Shown here: positions 377-31,652 of the stretch, piece after piece
How the letters are laid out: every line of letters starts with the position of its first letter
How positions within the stretch are numbered: position 1 is the stretch's first letter
Virus record (IMG/VR): IMGVR_UViG_3300027857_000011
Span: 1-35,815 of that record
Source of the DNA: a virus
Direction: 5' to 3' (one strand)
DNA length: 35,815 bases
The notes under the pieces: model-generated
What the model was told of the DNA's origin: nothing
Databases searched by the model: none
What the model saw: the letters and a program-made list of their open reading frames with translations, nothing else
Made by a program: the position numbers and the translations under genes

Positions 377-685
377 ATGGCTAAGAAAGTTACAGTAGCC
401 CGAGGGGTTAAAGTACCTCGTGGCACTGAAAGTAAGATGCGCAAGAAGAAGGGATCTTCAAGCGCAGGGAAATATAAGAATGTTAAACCTAGTGACTTCG
501 CTGGCTCTGCTGGTGGCGCTAATCGTTACAGCTTTCCTATACCTGATCTGGCACATGCTCGAAACGCTTTAGCCAGGGCACACTTTGCACCCAATCCTGA
601 GGGAATCCGCAGGAAAGTGTACAGAATGTACCCACAACTAAAGAAACGAGGTAAACACATGACCCGAAGATCATCAAAGCAGTAG
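377..685 (+). CDS. Small basic protein, DUF6582-like C-terminal segment
   Basis: The protein has 102 residues and starts at ATG behind AAAGGA. Residues 1-40 are Lys/Arg-rich. Residues 51-70 (YSFPIPDLAHARNALARAHF) and the following basic helix to about residue 92 resemble the DUF6582-type block seen in phage head-region proteins, in which a short FP-x-D-xxHxRNAxAR motif precedes a basic helix. I recognise this by pattern only. No catalytic residues are apparent. The gene sits in the run of small basic genes between portal and scaffold, so a DNA-binding or head-associated role is possible. The function is unknown. Confidence 0.8.
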   Translation: MAKKVTVARGVKVPRGTESKMRKKKGSSSAGKYKNVKPSDFAGSAGGANRYSFPIPDLAHARNALARAHFAPNPEGIRRKVYRMYPQLKKRGKHMTRRSSKQ

Positions 686-8131: not shown

Positions 8132-10441
8132 ATGGCCTACGATCGTTTCCTGATAGCGCCATTTGCTACTGGCCTTCAGACTAACATGAGACCGTGGTTA
8201 ATTATGGATGATGCATTTGAAGATCTTCAGAATGCCTACGTCTTCCGTGGTCGCGTGAGGAAGCGATTTGGTTCGAGGTTTATGGGAACTGGATGGGATA
8301 GTACTCAGACAGAGCCATTATTCTCTCGTTTAAGGATTAATCTAGGCAATACAAATGGCTCTGGCAATATAAGCGTCACTGTCCCCGGATCGATCTTTAA
8401 GGTTGGACAAATGTTCTCTATCGGCGATGAAATATTCACGGTAGTGGTTACTGGGACCCCTGGAACGCTTCTCGATACCGGAGCAGCTACTCTTGCGACG
8501 TATAATACCTCAACGGGGGCGCTTGTTATTAATGGTGCCGCTGCTGGTACTCCTGCATGGTTCTATCCTGCGCAGCCAGTAATGGGATTTGTCCTCTATT
8601 TGGTGGGAAGTAATTTCGATTCGCCTCTCTATGCATTTGATACTCAGTTTGCCTATTTATTCTCAGGAGGGTTCTGGCAGAGATCAGGATCGGGATCTAA
8701 CCCCATCTGGCATGGCAACGATCTTAATTTCTTCTGGAGTTATAACTATCGTGGGGCGAGTGATAATGTAGACGCGCTCTTCACGACTAATTTCCAGGTA
8801 ACTAACCCTAATGGTGCAGGTACTGCCACTGATGATCCTATATGGTACACCCAAGATGGATCCACATGGACGCCGGCTAGTGGGACAACGGGATTCTACT
8901 TCCTTCCTGCGGGTGGCTCTCCACAAACGGGTCCATTTATACAAACAGCGCTCATTATAGTCGCATTCAAGGGAAGGTTAATTCTTCTCAATACCATAGA
9001 GAATGATAATGGTGGTGGCTTAGGTACTAATTCTCAATATCCCAATAGAGCTCGTTGGAGCTGGGATGGTAGTCCATTCGCCCCTAATGCATGGTACGAG
9101 GCTAATCAATTTGACAGCTCGGGAAACCTATGGGGAGGCGCTGGATTTCTAGATGCTTCAACAGAAGAACATATCGTAAGCGCCGAATTTATTAAGGACA
9201 GGCTTATCGTCTACTTCGAAAGTAGTACCTGGGAGTTGGCATTCACCTATAATAATTCAGCTCCATTCACTTGGCAGAAGATTAATACTGAATTAGGATC
9301 TGAGGCCACTTTCTCGACAGTTCCCTTCGATAAGCAGGTTCTTACGATTGGTAATACGGGAGTACACGCTTGTAATGGTGCTAACGTAGCCCGAATAGAT
9401 AATAAGATCCCTAACCAGATATTCCGCATTGTAAATAAGAATGCTGGTGTAGAGCGTGTTGCTGGTATTCGCGATTACTATGCGGAATTAGTGTATTGGA
9501 CATTTCCTTCGATAGAGCAGAATCCTAATGAGAAGTATCCAGCCAAGGTACTCGTGTACAATTACGCCAATGATTCATGGTCATTTAATGACGATTGCAT
9601 AACAACCTGGGGCTATTTCGAACAGCAACAGGGTACTACGTGGGCATCCACTACCGATACCTGGCAGTCGGCTAACTTTACCTGGGCTAGTGGAACGGTA
9701 GAGGCTCAATTTAGACAGGTGGTCGGCGGAAACCAACAGGGATATACATTCATCATTGATACTAATTATGGGCGAAATGCTCAGGCTATGCAGATAACTA
9801 ATATGACGTGGAACCCAACTCGTGATACGGTAACCTTAACTATTATTGACCACACTCTTAATGTGACTCCATATGGCGATTATGTTAACATTCGCGACGC
9901 CTCAGGAGTCTCCTTTAGTGGGTTTGGAATTTATAAAGTGGTCGCTTATGTGGACACTAATAATGTTGAGGTTGGCCCTATAACATTCTTTACAGGAACT
10001 TATGAAGGCGGCGGGACCGCAGCCCGAGTATCCAACATTCTTCTTCTCACTAAGCAATGGAATCCCTATGTCGATAAGTCGCGCAACGTATATGTGGCTA
10101 AGATAGATTTCGGAGTTCAGAAGACTGATTCGGGACAGATAACAGTTGATTATTATCCTTCAGCCACTGAATTATCAATGCTCTATGAGGCGAGACAAAC
10201 GGGAACCCTACAGGGAAATGGTACCCTTGAAACCTCCCCCTACAACCCTACCTTCTACCCGCTTGAGCAGGTACAAGATAGATTGTGGCATCCGATTTAC
10301 TTCCAGACTGATGGTGAATGCATACAGCTATTTATGTATATGGCTGAAGATCAGATGGTGGTGCCTGATATTTCATTCTCTGACTTTGAGCTTGAGGGAA
10401 TGGTACTTCATACGCAGCCTACAGCCTCGAGGTTAGAATAA
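8132..10441 (+). CDS. Tail hub / stabilisation protein, P22 gp10 / T7 gp12-like
   Basis: The protein has 769 residues. The N-terminus has the typical opening of podovirus tail-hub proteins: NAYVFRGRVRKRFGSR at about residues 30-45, comparable to the start of gp10/gp12-class beta-propeller proteins. Long beta-rich segments with many aromatic residues and no catalytic motif follow. The C-terminus contains a region with LYEARQTGTLQGNGTLETSP and a jelly-roll-like end. It begins two bases after the previous gene stop, and its stop overlaps the start of the next gene (TAATG). It would extend the tail below the adaptor. Assignment is by pattern and gene order. Confidence 0.75.
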   Translation: MAYDRFLIAPFATGLQTNMRPWLIMDDAFEDLQNAYVFRGRVRKRFGSRFMGTGWDSTQTEPLFSRLRINLGNTNGSGNISVTVPGSIFKVGQMFSIGDEIFTVVVTGTPGTLLDTGAATLATYNTSTGALVINGAAAGTPAWFYPAQPVMGFVLYLVGSNFDSPLYAFDTQFAYLFSGGFWQRSGSGSNPIWHGNDLNFFWSYNYRGASDNVDALFTTNFQVTNPNGAGTATDDPIWYTQDGSTWTPASGTTGFYFLPAGGSPQTGPFIQTALIIVAFKGRLILLNTIENDNGGGLGTNSQYPNRARWSWDGSPFAPNAWYEANQFDSSGNLWGGAGFLDASTEEHIVSAEFIKDRLIVYFESSTWELAFTYNNSAPFTWQKINTELGSEATFSTVPFDKQVLTIGNTGVHACNGANVARIDNKIPNQIFRIVNKNAGVERVAGIRDYYAELVYWTFPSIEQNPNEKYPAKVLVYNYANDSWSFNDDCITTWGYFEQQQGTTWASTTDTWQSANFTWASGTVEAQFRQVVGGNQQGYTFIIDTNYGRNAQAMQITNMTWNPTRDTVTLTIIDHTLNVTPYGDYVNIRDASGVSFSGFGIYKVVAYVDTNNVEVGPITFFTGTYEGGGTAARVSNILLLTKQWNPYVDKSRNVYVAKIDFGVQKTDSGQITVDYYPSATELSMLYEARQTGTLQGNGTLETSPYNPTFYPLEQVQDRLWHPIYFQTDGECIQLFMYMAEDQMVVPDISFSDFELEGMVLHTQPTASRLE

Positions 10442-23228: not shown

Positions 23229-23233
23229 GTTTG

Positions 23234-23248
23234 ACTTTCATGGAAAGT
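23234..23248. promoter_or_regulatory. Dyad ACTTTC-ATG-GAAAGT at the erf ribosome site
   Basis: A perfect inverted repeat with six-base arms lies six to twenty bases upstream of the erf start codon, covering its ribosome-binding region. It may be an operator or an RNA hairpin that controls erf translation. Another ACTTTC copy lies nearby (about 23258). Confidence 0.45.
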
Positions 23249-23330
23249 GACTGTGTACTTTCTGGCTCTTAAGAACTCTTCCATACTCGCACTACACAAT
23301 CGATTGAATTTAGATTACTCTATGTACTGT

Positions 23331-23420
23331 CATTGAATGGTTCAATGGCTAGCACAGACCACCTGTGAATCGTAACTCTAATACGATTTACAGCTGTGTT
23401 GATATCACGGACATGATATC
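23331..23420. promoter_or_regulatory. Stacked dyads between erf and the replication gene (operator array or origin)
   Basis: Four inverted repeats lie in 90 bp: CATTGAA-TGG-TTCAATG (23331-23347), CACAG-ACCAC-CTGTG (23353-23367), AATCGTA with TACGATT (23368-23388), and two GATATC palindromes (23401-23406, 23415-23420) inside TGATATC direct repeats. They fill the divergent promoter region. A TTGATA at 23399 could be a -35 box for the rightward gene. The density suggests a repressor operator array or initiator-binding sites of a replication origin. Confidence 0.55.
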
Positions 23421-23463
23421 GGTTTATCAAATACCCGACCAAGAGATTTAATAGTTCAAGTTT

Positions 23464-24567
23464 ATGCTAAACGTCAACACAAATCAAGTAAATTCGTCAA
23501 TAAAGTTCAATCAGCTAAAGCTGTCTGCATCCAATGCGCTTGATTGGTTAATTTCAAATATAGTTAATAACAGGAGCCGTAAGATTGGAATTAGAATCCT
23601 ATCTAGATTTATTGGCTTGTCTAACCGCTGTAAGACGATATATATTCGGCAGGACACAATTGCAAGGGATATAGGCTGCTGCCGTGAGTCGGTTAACCGC
23701 TGGATAGCTTACTTCTGTGAGTTGGGTATTCTTTCGAAGGCCTACCGCCCTATGACTTCATGCCTTTATGAGATAAATCCCCTCTTCTATAAGAAGGAGA
23801 TACGCAACGAGATATACTTCCTTCTCCGTTCTGCTATCTTCCTCCCCATAGCCCTTCTCACTTCTATAAGAGGAGAAATTCCACCTGAAACAGATAAGTA
23901 TATATTCCCTTCAGAATATTCTCAGGGAGAAATGTCACACAAGGAGTCTGTTAGGAAGAGTATTAATACTACCCCCCTATCCCCCCATGACGCCTCTCGG
24001 GGTTCTGAGCGCGGTAGGGAGGGTGATAAACCACCAGGTAGAGGGAGAGCTATACCGATGGAAACAGTCAAGGGCCCGAAAGAGCTCAAGTTAAACCGTG
24101 TCGGTGAATTATTGCTCTCGGTGTATCCACCACAAGCTAGGAAACATGCCGGTAAAGTCGTCTCAGAGTGCACGATGGCCATTAAATTGCCATTCTTCTA
24201 CTACCGCAAGCTGTGTAACGACTGGTGTAAGGCTAACAATTTCAAGATAGCTAAGGTTAAATTCCGGGAGATGCACGATACTATCAGGGCAGAAAGATTG
24301 GATTCTAATGCCAATGGTGTTGATCCTAAAGATCCATGGATATATCTCACTCCTAAGCCGTTGGGCCGCACGTCTGATAATCGCCCTCCCACCGGTCCTC
24401 TCTCGAATGCAGTAGTCCCTGTTCTTAAGCCCAAGCTTGAGCATGATGCGGTTGCCGATACTAAGTCGAAGATGGAAGAATTTGCTAGTTCTCGGGGTGA
24501 TGGTATGCTTTCTAGTATATTGGAGAGCATGATTAGCCTCATGGTGAAGGCCAATACCAAGATATAA
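23464..24567 (+). CDS. Winged-helix replication-initiator-like protein
   Basis: The protein has 367 residues. Residues 40-105 form a winged helix: SRKIGIRILSRFIGLSNRCK, then QDTIARDIGCCRESVNRWIA and YFCELGILSKAYRP, with the wing before LYEINP. This is the HTH style of phage O-like and plasmid RepA-like initiators and of related early proteins. The middle (about 160-205) is a Pro/Arg/Ser-rich linker. The C-terminal 165 residues are helical and lack helicase or primase motifs. It is divergent from erf across a dyad-rich gap, the usual arrangement for an initiator near its origin. The ribosome site is weak. Function is inferred from fold and context. Confidence 0.7.
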   Translation: MLNVNTNQVNSSIKFNQLKLSASNALDWLISNIVNNRSRKIGIRILSRFIGLSNRCKTIYIRQDTIARDIGCCRESVNRWIAYFCELGILSKAYRPMTSCLYEINPLFYKKEIRNEIYFLLRSAIFLPIALLTSIRGEIPPETDKYIFPSEYSQGEMSHKESVRKSINTTPLSPHDASRGSERGREGDKPPGRGRAIPMETVKGPKELKLNRVGELLLSVYPPQARKHAGKVVSECTMAIKLPFFYYRKLCNDWCKANNFKIAKVKFREMHDTIRAERLDSNANGVDPKDPWIYLTPKPLGRTSDNRPPTGPLSNAVVPVLKPKLEHDAVADTKSKMEEFASSRGDGMLSSILESMISLMVKANTKI

Positions 24568-24569
24568 CC

Positions 24570-24956
24570 ATGGAATATGAACCAAGCCTTCCCTATCCCG
24601 ATTTCGGAGATACTAAGGCAATAGAAGCATTTAAAGTTATAGAAGATTGCACTCGCTATATAAAGCTTCCCTGGAGAATTGATCAGGACCTAGGTAACGG
24701 ATCATCGCTTTCTTACGAGACCATCAACCCACTCATTGACTATTATGCCCCTTGCGTCACGTTTCGGATGTACGCAAATAACCATGAAGTGCATGTGCAA
24801 AGATTCTTAGAAGCCCCCAAGGGTATTAGATATAGGTACACTAAAGAATATCTACAATTCTTGCATTACATAAGCACCACACTGTCTGACTATAAGAAGC
24901 AGAATGAAGAAGATCAGCTTGCTCCCTTTCGGGAGATGCCCGATCCAGATTCTTGA
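24570..24956 (+). CDS. Unknown early protein coupled to the replication gene
   Basis: The protein has 128 residues. It starts two bases after the previous stop, so translation is probably coupled. It is mixed alpha/beta with many aromatic residues (IDYYAPCVTFRMYANNHEVH, then RYRYTKEYLQFLHYISTTLS) and an acidic C-terminus (EMPDPDS). I recognise no domain. A partner of the initiator, such as a loader-like factor, is possible by position only. Confidence 0.75.
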   Translation: MEYEPSLPYPDFGDTKAIEAFKVIEDCTRYIKLPWRIDQDLGNGSSLSYETINPLIDYYAPCVTFRMYANNHEVHVQRFLEAPKGIRYRYTKEYLQFLHYISTTLSDYKKQNEEDQLAPFREMPDPDS

Positions 24957-24959
24957 AGT

Positions 24960-24987
24960 TTGTCAAAGTTGCTAAATAGGTTATACT
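24960..24987 (+). promoter_or_regulatory. Sigma70-type promoter before the non-coding segment
   Basis: TTGTCA (24960-24965) and TATACT (24982-24987) are separated by 16 bp. The ten bases GTTATACTTA around the -10 box recur at the promoter at 26314-26341. It lies right after the 24956 stop and points into a stretch without genes. Confidence 0.65.
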
Positions 24988-24993
24988 TACGCT

Positions 24994-25225
24994 ACCGAGC
25001 TAGCACTCTCGATACGAGCAACTGAAGACCGCCTGATTCCGTACAGAGTCTTGCGGTATCCGCGGATAGCTGCATACATCATTGAGCTAGCGGAGTGAAC
25101 TCGTAGGGTTCCACGGACAAAGGGAGCCCTATTTAAAGATTTCATTAGGGATAATGGTTCTTGCATACCTTATCCCACTCCTTTCCCCACTAAGAATGTC
25201 TATGTTCCTAGTGGGGTTCTTATTT
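24994..25225 (+). ncRNA. Candidate structured non-coding RNA (~230 nt) ending in an intrinsic terminator
   Basis: A promoter at 24960-24987 and a terminator at 25185-25225 frame a stretch with no convincing gene. Inside are a 12-base palindrome TATCCGCGGATA (25057-25068), GAGCTAGC twice (about 24996 and 25088), a GGGTTCC / GGGAGCCC stem (about 25112-25135), and a CATTA-GGGA-TAATG hairpin with a GNRA-type loop (25143-25156). The last competes with a longer GGGATAA / TTATCCC stem (25148-25154 with 25170-25176). AAGAC / GTCTT and ACCGC / GCGGT also compete near 25024-25057. This is the look of a folded RNA or an attenuator leader. No known RNA family is recognised. Confidence 0.5.
25185..25225 (+). 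terminator. Rho-independent terminator
   Basis: CCCCACTA (25185-25192) pairs with TAGTGGGG (25209-25216), extendable past one mismatch by GAA/TTC, and is followed by TTCTTATTT (25217-25225). It would end the transcript from the promoter at 24960. Confidence 0.75.
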
Positions 25226-25409
25226 CCGAATCACCATGCAAATTACTACATGCATGTCCGCAATTACATGGTGCCTCTAAATATGGCCGTAGACAGACGA
25301 ACTCAGATATACTATTGTCTATGTAGGGTTATGTAATAATCTTTCGCCTTAAGGCAAACTAGATAGTCCCACAGCTTTGTAGTACTTCCTAGTTAGAATT
25401 CTACCTAGG
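25226..25409. other. Palindrome-rich gene-free region upstream of rusA
   Basis: This stretch has no gene but holds, in order: CACCATG with CATGGTG (25232-25238, 25267-25273) enclosing the palindrome ACATGCATGT (25248-25257), TAGACA with TGTCTA (25290-25295, 25316-25321), the palindrome GCCTTAAGGC (25346-25355), and a 22-bp near-perfect dyad CCTAG-N12-CTAGG (25388-25409) ending eight bases before rusA. It may be an origin, a packaging signal or a regulatory leader. Confidence 0.5.
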
Positions 25410-25417
25410 TCAAATGT

Positions 25418-25822
25418 ATGGTATATGTGATTGAAGGAAAGCCGGTACCACTCCAACGAGCTCGCTTTGCACGAGATCATTGTTGGGATGCCCAGAAAGC
25501 CCTCAAGTGCTCAATAGCCATTTCCCTTGAACGACAACATCGCGACTTTCCCCTCCTTTCTGGACCCCTTAAGCTCAATATTACCTTCTACTTTGCTGAA
25601 CCCGTGAAGAAACGTCACAAGTTGAAACAGCCCGTGACGGAATGTCACGCACTCAGAAGCCATATCACTAAACCTGATCTCAGCAATCTTATTAAGTTCG
25701 TAGAAGATGTTGCAACGGGCATTATTTATAGCGATGATGCCATAATTGCTGAAATACACGCCTACAAGTGCTATGATAACCCGGCGAGAACAGAGTTTGA
25801 GTTGGTCCCATTGGAGAGATAA
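25418..25822 (+). CDS. rusA: RusA-family Holliday-junction endonuclease
   Basis: The protein has 134 residues, the usual RusA size. The N-terminus has the G-x-PVPLQRAR element (7-15). The catalytic block is KPDLSNLIKFVEDVATGIIY followed by SDDAII (85-110), with D87, D97 and D106/D107 as the likely metal-binding acids and a downstream Lys (K117). RusA enzymes are dimers that resolve four-way junctions with Mg2+, here probably to clean branched replication or packaging DNA. The gene sits directly before the probable small terminase. Upstream is a 22-bp dyad covering the weak ribosome site (TAGG). Confidence 0.92.
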   Translation: MVYVIEGKPVPLQRARFARDHCWDAQKALKCSIAISLERQHRDFPLLSGPLKLNITFYFAEPVKKRHKLKQPVTECHALRSHITKPDLSNLIKFVEDVATGIIYSDDAIIAEIHAYKCYDNPARTEFELVPLER

Positions 25823-26292: not shown

Positions 26293-26313
26293 TATTATAT
26301 TTGCGGCATATTC

Positions 26314-26341
26314 TTGATCTTATTCGTAGATATGTTATACT
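26314..26341 (+). promoter_or_regulatory. Sigma70-type promoter before the packaging-region genes
   Basis: TTGATC (26314-26319) and TATACT (26336-26341) are 16 bp apart, with the same GTTATACTTA surround as the promoter at 24960. It lies 36 bases before the 26377 gene. Confidence 0.6.
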
Positions 26342-26376
26342 TAGAATATGTTTAATCTACACAGGAAAGGAATCCC

Positions 26377-26517
26377 ATGTGTAACAATTACGAAACTTTC
26401 TGGACCCTATTGTTCCTCTATCTTATTTATAGATGGGGAAAGCGTAATGGATATCGAGAAGCACTCTATTGCGTAGGGTGTGACAACTTATTATCGTGTA
26501 ATGAATGTAAAGAATAG
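26377..26517 (+). CDS. 46-residue membrane mini-protein with two CxxC pairs
   Basis: This small frame has a strong ribosome site (AGGAAAGGA) and its own promoter. A hydrophobic segment spans about residues 8-19 (FWTLLFLYLIYR). The C-terminus has C32xxC35 and C41xxC44, a probable small zinc knuckle on the cytoplasmic side. No family is recognised. It lies before a terminator at 26553, so it may be transcribed as a short separate mRNA. Confidence 0.7.
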   Translation: MCNNYETFWTLLFLYLIYRWGKRNGYREALYCVGCDNLLSCNECKE

Positions 26518-26552
26518 ATTCCGCGTCCCACCCCCTGGGATGTGGGATTCCG

Positions 26553-26582
26553 ACTGGCCTTACTTCGGTGGGGCCAGTTTAC
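26553..26582 (+). terminator. Rho-independent terminator
   Basis: ACTGGCC (26553-26559) pairs with GGCCAGT (26572-26578), followed by TTACTAT. A second small hairpin (TCCCA 26526-26530 with TGGGA 26536-26540) precedes it. It would end the 26377 transcript, so the following genes depend on readthrough or another promoter. Confidence 0.65.
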
Positions 26583-26596
26583 TATAGAAAGGCAAT

Positions 26597-26926
26597 ATGG
26601 GAAGAAAGTGCTGTGGCGATAAAGGACAGGAATTGGTTGATGGCCTATTTACCAAAGTCCCAATCGATGAATTATTGAATGGTATGATCGATATATTAAA
26701 GCCCATGGGCAAGATGTGCGATTTGCTGTGGAGTGAATACCAGGGAGGAGCTGATTGGGACTTCCTGTTTGAGAAAGACAATGCTGCCATGATGTTGCCC
26801 CATGTAATTATGATTAAGAGGCTTACCAATCTGCCCCATATGCGAGAATTGCTTCAAGATTATATTGGCGCGGATAATGAAATATTAGAAGCTATTGCTA
26901 CATTGTCGATCGAATTAAAGGATTAG
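26597..26926 (+). CDS. Unknown protein, tandem paralogue of the next gene
   Basis: The protein has 109 residues behind AGAAAGG. It is mainly helical. Its segment KPMGKMCDLLWSEY, and its C-terminal end with RELLQDYIGADNEILEAIAT, align by eye with the next protein (NPIMGNIKALCDYVWHKF and then RAILSQLLDKDNDVIRLLDN). The Cys pair at residues 5-6 is unique. The two are probably duplicated. No family name is recognised. Position near the terminases hints at packaging or early regulation. Confidence 0.75.
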   Translation: MGRKCCGDKGQELVDGLFTKVPIDELLNGMIDILKPMGKMCDLLWSEYQGGADWDFLFEKDNAAMMLPHVIMIKRLTNLPHMRELLQDYIGADNEILEAIATLSIELKD

Positions 26927-26928
26927 TT

Positions 26929-27276
26929 ATGGTTAAGATTAAGAGAGACTCCCAAGACGACAATATGCCACTCATAAAGAAGGTAACTAATTGCATAGTA
27001 AAGAATAGCGTGGCTCACTCTATTATGGTTATTAATCCCATCATGGGCAATATTAAGGCGCTATGCGATTATGTATGGCATAAATTCAAGGAAGAGGGCC
27101 GTGAGAAGTTCTGTTCTAATCGCGGTACTTTCATAGTCTTGATAGGGTTCTTAAAGGAGGTTATAGCTGTTGCAGAATCAAGAGCTATTCTGAGCCAATT
27201 GCTTGATAAGGATAATGACGTCATAAGGTTATTAGACAATATGTCGGTGTGTACTGAGGAGGAAGAGAGCTCCTAA
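26929..27276 (+). CDS. Unknown protein, tandem paralogue of the previous gene
   Basis: The protein has 115 residues. It starts two bases after the previous stop, with AAGGA upstream. It is helical, with Cys residues at about 22, 47 and 64, and a Glu/Ser-rich C-terminus (TEEEESS). See the previous gene for the shared W-containing motif and the shared C-terminal helix. The function is unknown. Confidence 0.75.
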   Translation: MVKIKRDSQDDNMPLIKKVTNCIVKNSVAHSIMVINPIMGNIKALCDYVWHKFKEEGREKFCSNRGTFIVLIGFLKEVIAVAESRAILSQLLDKDNDVIRLLDNMSVCTEEEESS

Positions 27277-31497: not shown

Positions 31498-31515
31498 AAT
31501 TCGTCTCCTTCAGTC

Positions 31516-31553
31516 GTCGACATTGTGTCGACAACTGTCTCCAATTTGTCGAC
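31516..31553. promoter_or_regulatory. Three GTCGAC palindromes in helical phase, candidate operator
   Basis: GTCGAC occurs at 31516-31521, 31527-31532 and 31548-31553. Spacings are 11 and 21 bp, so all copies lie on one face of the helix. The second copy extends to TGTCGACA. They sit between the 30-residue gene and the start of the 104-residue secreted gene, within a few tens of bases of its start. They are likely binding sites for a dimeric regulator. Confidence 0.5.
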
Positions 31554-31559
31554 GGTTCA

Positions 31560-31652
31560 TTATTTAATTCTTGTTAGTAGTGCTGCGATAGCACTTACCA
31601 GTAATGCAAGGGCGAATTCACTCAACCCTTGCATTATTACCGGATCAATCAT
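31560..31652 (-). CDS. 30-residue single-span membrane mini-protein
   Basis: ATG 31652 overlaps the stop of the preceding gene (ATGATTGA), so translation is probably coupled. The product MIDPVIMQGLSEFALALLVS plus ten more residues is one hydrophobic helix (about 5-26) with a short basic end (TRIK). Small one-span peptides coupled to other membrane proteins are typical of holin or antiholin partners. This is inference from size and setting. Inside the gene an 11-bp perfect stem (31602-31612 with 31626-31636) could fold in the mRNA. Confidence 0.6.
   Translation of the reverse strand: MIDPVIMQGLSEFALALLVSAIAALLTRIK

Follow-up and report, generated by a model that had tools for sequence, protein, structure and literature searches.

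Gene neighbourhood

The stretch of DNA analysed here (the window) is an IMG/VR virus record of 35.8 kb (35,815 nt) which encodes a P22-type portal, the large terminase subunit, an Erf-like annealing protein and a RusA-like resolvase. The segment under study, 24960-25225, lies upstream of the resolvase gene, rusA. Its other neighbour is a 128-aa ORF without an assigned function (24570-24956), which is itself preceded by a gene of replication type that has a weak HTH match. The features of the locus are collected in Table 1.

In most of the relatives read, which comprise 80 TerL-related and 17 RusA-related loci, the replication gene runs right up to rusA or overlaps it. The segment is therefore extra DNA, an insertion in this lineage. 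The gene-free remainder in front of rusA contains a 28-nt motif (TAGTACTWCCTAGTTA onward, 25380-25409), which occurs with 86% identity in one related locus (L004:10401-10428), where it is found in the gap 5' of the portal gene. The motif is absent from the remaining fetched loci and is possibly an operator.

Table 1. Coordinates of the features in and around the gene-free segment
Feature	Position	Strand	Description
Sigma70-type promoter	24960-24987	+	TTGTCA-N16-TATACT; 10 of 12 consensus positions
Predicted non-coding transcript, ~232 nt	24994-25225	+	Start placed from the -10 box; fold z -4.1; no credible ORF
5' domain hairpin	25028-25057	+	ACCGC/GCGGT with inner GATTC/GAGTC; probability ~0.91-0.98; z -3.7 alone
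3' domain hairpin 1	25103-25132	+	GTAGGGTTCC/GGGAGCCCTA region; -16.1 kcal/mol, z -3.2
3' domain hairpin 2	25148-25176	+	GGGATAA/TTATCCC; -13.0 kcal/mol, z -4.2; probability ~0.90-1.0, mostly >0.95
Intrinsic terminator	25185-25225	+	Hairpin 25185-25216; 8-bp CCCCACTA/TAGTGGGG stem and 4 inner pairs; tail TTCTTATTT
Gene-free remainder	25226-25417		Imperfect palindrome 25232-25273; dyad 25388-25409 directly upstream of rusA; sequence scan
rusA-like Holliday junction resolvase gene	25418-25822	+	Downstream neighbour; phrog_140, E 9.6e-25
Second promoter	26314-26343	+	TTGATC-N16-TATACT-TA; same form as the 24960-24987 site
46-aa ORF of the second cassette	26377-26517	+	AGGAAAGGA upstream; hydrophobic stretch; CxxC motif
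Two strong consecutive hairpins	26517-26579	+	End of the second cassette; folding

Promoter, terminator and a second cassette

The promoter named in the original prediction is present, though the quality of its match is within chance for the window as a whole: matches at 10 of 12 positions number 7 in the window and 12 in shuffled sequences, and the match is not significant alone. The site is the best one in 20-30 kb, and the stop codon that ends the 128-aa ORF precedes the start of the -35 box by 4 bases. The form TTG-N19-TATACTTA is found once more within the window, 1.35 kb downstream, and four related loci (L003, L004, L007 and L069) share it at one conserved position. The credibility of the promoter is raised by its position just after a stop codon, at the edge of the sole local gene-free stretch, and by the recurrence of its exact form, the latter support being post hoc, as the pattern was derived from the finding itself. 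The promoter-like site in the homologous DNA reads TTGATA-N16-TATACTTA (L003:14756, L004:15708, L007:7811 and L069:15038), and in L003 and L004, the two that were read, it is followed by a conserved leader-like stretch.

The intrinsic terminator that had been claimed for the other end of the segment is also found, with its hairpin and T-rich tail. The hairpin has a z-score of -4.5, its stem pairs with a probability of mostly 0.96-1.0 (0.75 for the outermost pair), and it is present in nearly all structures of the folded ensemble. The distance to it from the stop codon of the preceding gene is about 229 bases. Terminators of the CCCC..GGGG type are common in this phage group, behind protein genes.

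The second promoter heads a cassette (26293-26596) in which the promoter, the AGGAAAGGA ribosome site, the 46-aa ORF and two hairpins follow one another in a typical moron layout. The ORF has no match in Pfam or NCBIfam and, to judge from its sequence, is likely to be a real small protein of membrane/CxxC character. The layout of the 24960-25225 segment is the same, minus the ORF. Because the same promoter form heads both, the phage seems to bear two or more cassettes of this kind. The small ORFs 26597-26926 and 26929-27276, which follow side by side, are apparent distant paralogues (BLASTP E 9e-5, 16% identity).

Coding potential and homologues

The claim that about 230 nt lack a convincing gene is borne out. 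The ORFs of the gap between the two genes (24957-25417) were checked by codon score, start site and Pfam, and none is a credible gene. Their codon scores (-0.22, -0.15 and -0.30) resemble the mean of off-frame runs (-0.27), a score that separates short genes poorly, and there is no well-placed Shine-Dalgarno sequence. Comparison of the readthrough frame with phage genomes and Pfam gave no match.

No homologue of the segment was found in Rfam, in phages and plasmids (blastn), in pattern scans of IMG/VR with three exact 18-20-mers, or in about 110 fetched loci (nhmmer, blastn and two single-sequence covariance models). Close relatives were also sought via the flanking genes, with an empty result, and nothing was found in two MAGs. 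At the gathering score Rfam gives 0 matches in the window; the only match, to a snoRNA, is below threshold and due to chance. The covariance model of the 3' half gives weak matches in L039, L081, L067 and L023 (E 0.004-0.3), which have nothing in common beyond a lead-in rich in pyrimidines and the C-rich terminator. Two of these four, L039 and L081, were checked and rejected as homologues, being ordinary terminators behind protein genes. A "conserved spacer family" of 72 clustered gaps was likewise dropped; where checked, it included a small conserved protein gene.

Predicted structure of the RNA

The predicted transcript folds with -81.2 kcal/mol, a value equalled by none of 200 shuffled sequences. 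Among 312 gene-free gaps of the phage group the fold score of the segment ranks 22nd, which is high, not unique. The 5' domain as a whole (24997-25100) has a z-score of -1.0 and is no better than chance, so that the signal stems mainly from the terminator and the adjoining hairpins, that is, from three hairpins in the last 125 nt. On the minus strand, 25126-25275 also scores well (z -5.2) because the hairpins are nearly symmetrical, but that strand carries no T-tail. The smaller elements of the original prediction are in place and give weak signals: the repeat GAGCTAGC, at 24997 and 25084, is matched by 25% of shuffles, and the 12-bp palindrome TATCCGCGGATA, at 25057, by 5%. The number of 5-bp stems in the segment, equalled in 2% of shuffles, is a similarly weak signal.

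Unusually stable folds are predicted elsewhere in the window as well. In the gap between two minus-strand genes at 31501-31650 there are GTCGAC repeats, and both strands fold into strong hairpins (z -6.2 and -4.7). The folds of 526-675 (minus strand) and 8851-9000 (plus strand) have z-scores of about -6, the latter within a coding region.

Two pairs of mutually exclusive stems had been proposed. Their halves are indeed in the sequence, but the balance between them is not, since one form of each pair accounts for more than 90%, mostly more than 97%. When the full RNA is folded, AAGAC/GTCTT has a probability of about 0.002 versus about 0.91-0.98 for ACCGC/GCGGT, and CATTA/TAATG, the proposed GNRA-looped hairpin, pairs with a probability of 0.000 versus about 0.90-1.0 for GGGATAA/TTATCCC. 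The GNRA hairpin is thus virtually missing from the ensemble. The rare forms, when imposed, are 4-5 kcal/mol less favourable, and folding of successive prefixes reveals a short-lived alternative in the first 60 nt only. The modelled balance of stems is not that expected of an attenuator or switch. The ensemble of the folded RNA contains no antiterminator competing with the terminator, the alternatives being near 0, and no leader peptide was found in the segment.

Interpretation of the segment

The reading that we favour, with a probability of about 0.45, is that the segment is a lineage-specific, moron-like transcription unit, which would produce a short untranslated RNA, a candidate sRNA of a known general kind. 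It is suggested by the promoter and terminator at both edges of a gene-free stretch, by a fold of z -4.1 (rank 22 of 312) without a coding signal, and by the insertion between genes adjacent in relatives together with the second cassette of the same promoter. The host RNA polymerase would start near 24994 and stop near 25225, and the stable product, about 230 nt long, would be insulated from the rightward operon around it. The most speculative step is that this RNA would regulate host or phage messages in trans, as an sRNA. Of the regulatory small RNA originally proposed, the non-coding unit from promoter to terminator fits every test; a trans target was not found, and the predicted RNA pairs no better than chance with the start regions of genes in the phage itself. 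It is unlikely that the segment, as an accessory cassette with the promoter type of the neighbouring small-protein cassette, specifies a trans-acting structured RNA of about 230 nt that belongs to a new class without any described relative.

The combination of an accidental promoter with an operon end is nearly as likely as the moron-like unit. The hairpins and the terminator would then halt transcription arriving from the replication genes (23464-24956), so that it ends ahead of rusA and the packaging genes, and no separate functional RNA would be made. This possibility agrees with the confinement of the structure signal to the last 125 nt and with the abundance of CCCC..GGGG terminators behind protein genes in the group, such terminators also being what the 3'-half covariance matches proved to be in the 2 loci checked; promoter matches as good as this one are, moreover, expected by chance. 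It accounts less well for a terminator some 229 bases past the upstream stop codon, for a promoter-like site right at that codon and for the recurrence of the exact promoter form in the second cassette. It is improbable that the segment holds a protein gene, whether decayed or very small. Such a gene could be a moron that has lost its ORF, the 60-aa ORF 25154-25336, or the plus-strand frame 24976-25326, where a single TGA separates open runs of 40 and 75 codons, and the sister cassette does contain a likely small protein gene. The codon scores, however, are nearer to those of off-frame runs than of genes, a good start with a Shine-Dalgarno sequence and a protein homologue are lacking, and the 60-aa ORF extends through the terminator.

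The two remaining proposals of the original prediction found no support. A leader that controls rusA, as an attenuator or in the manner of a riboswitch, would have its promoter, folded part and terminator in the correct order upstream of that gene; yet nearly every structure contains the terminator, the named alternative stems, unequal in energy, reach at most 0.002, rusA begins another 192 bases past the terminator, and there is no match in Rfam. We consider such a leader very unlikely. Still more remote is a replication origin or an origin primer transcript, as which the palindromes and hairpins could be taken, given the adjacent replication-type gene and its weak HTH match: 23229-25417 contains no iterons or tandem direct repeats, and the GC skew shows no consistent change.

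Comparison with known phage RNAs

A small phage RNA from the segment is plausible on sequence grounds. EcOnc, AsxR and AgvB of lambdoid prophages are Hfq-bound RNAs of 51-60 nt, conserved among prophages and arranged in convergent pairs (PMC4104026). The candidate resembles these moron-associated sRNAs in being a small RNA gene at an insertion site between phage genes, and differs from them in its length of about 230 nt and in being an orphan and single. OOP, sar, PreS and VpdS are further phage sRNAs; of these, sar and OOP, like aQ, are antisense to a gene of the phage (PMC12197685). The predicted RNA would share with OOP, sar, PreS and VpdS that it is a short phage RNA; unlike sar, OOP and aQ, it does not lie antisense to any annotated gene, and no match to the gene starts of the window was found.

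The Hfq-binding sRNA module consists of a double hairpin, a pyrimidine-rich stretch and a terminator hairpin with a T-rich tail, and Hfq-dependent sRNAs follow the rule of a poly(U) tail of seven or more (PMC5558911). The segment has the double hairpin, the pyrimidine-rich stretch before the terminator and the T-rich tail, but the tail TTCTTATTT contains no run of seven T, and for this reason the label of an Hfq-type sRNA is withheld. With the double-hairpin operon terminators of the group the segment shares the CCCC..GGGG stem, the pyrimidine-rich lead-in and the GGGGTT tail; it differs from them in that a promoter and a gene-free stretch of 190 nt precede its terminator.

At present the segment mainly illustrates that a terminator, nearby hairpins and a promoter-like site can mimic an RNA gene. 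If it is transcribed, an orphan accessory phage RNA would join a short list, and this would suggest that some phages acquire non-coding morons besides the protein-coding ones, with a shared promoter type.
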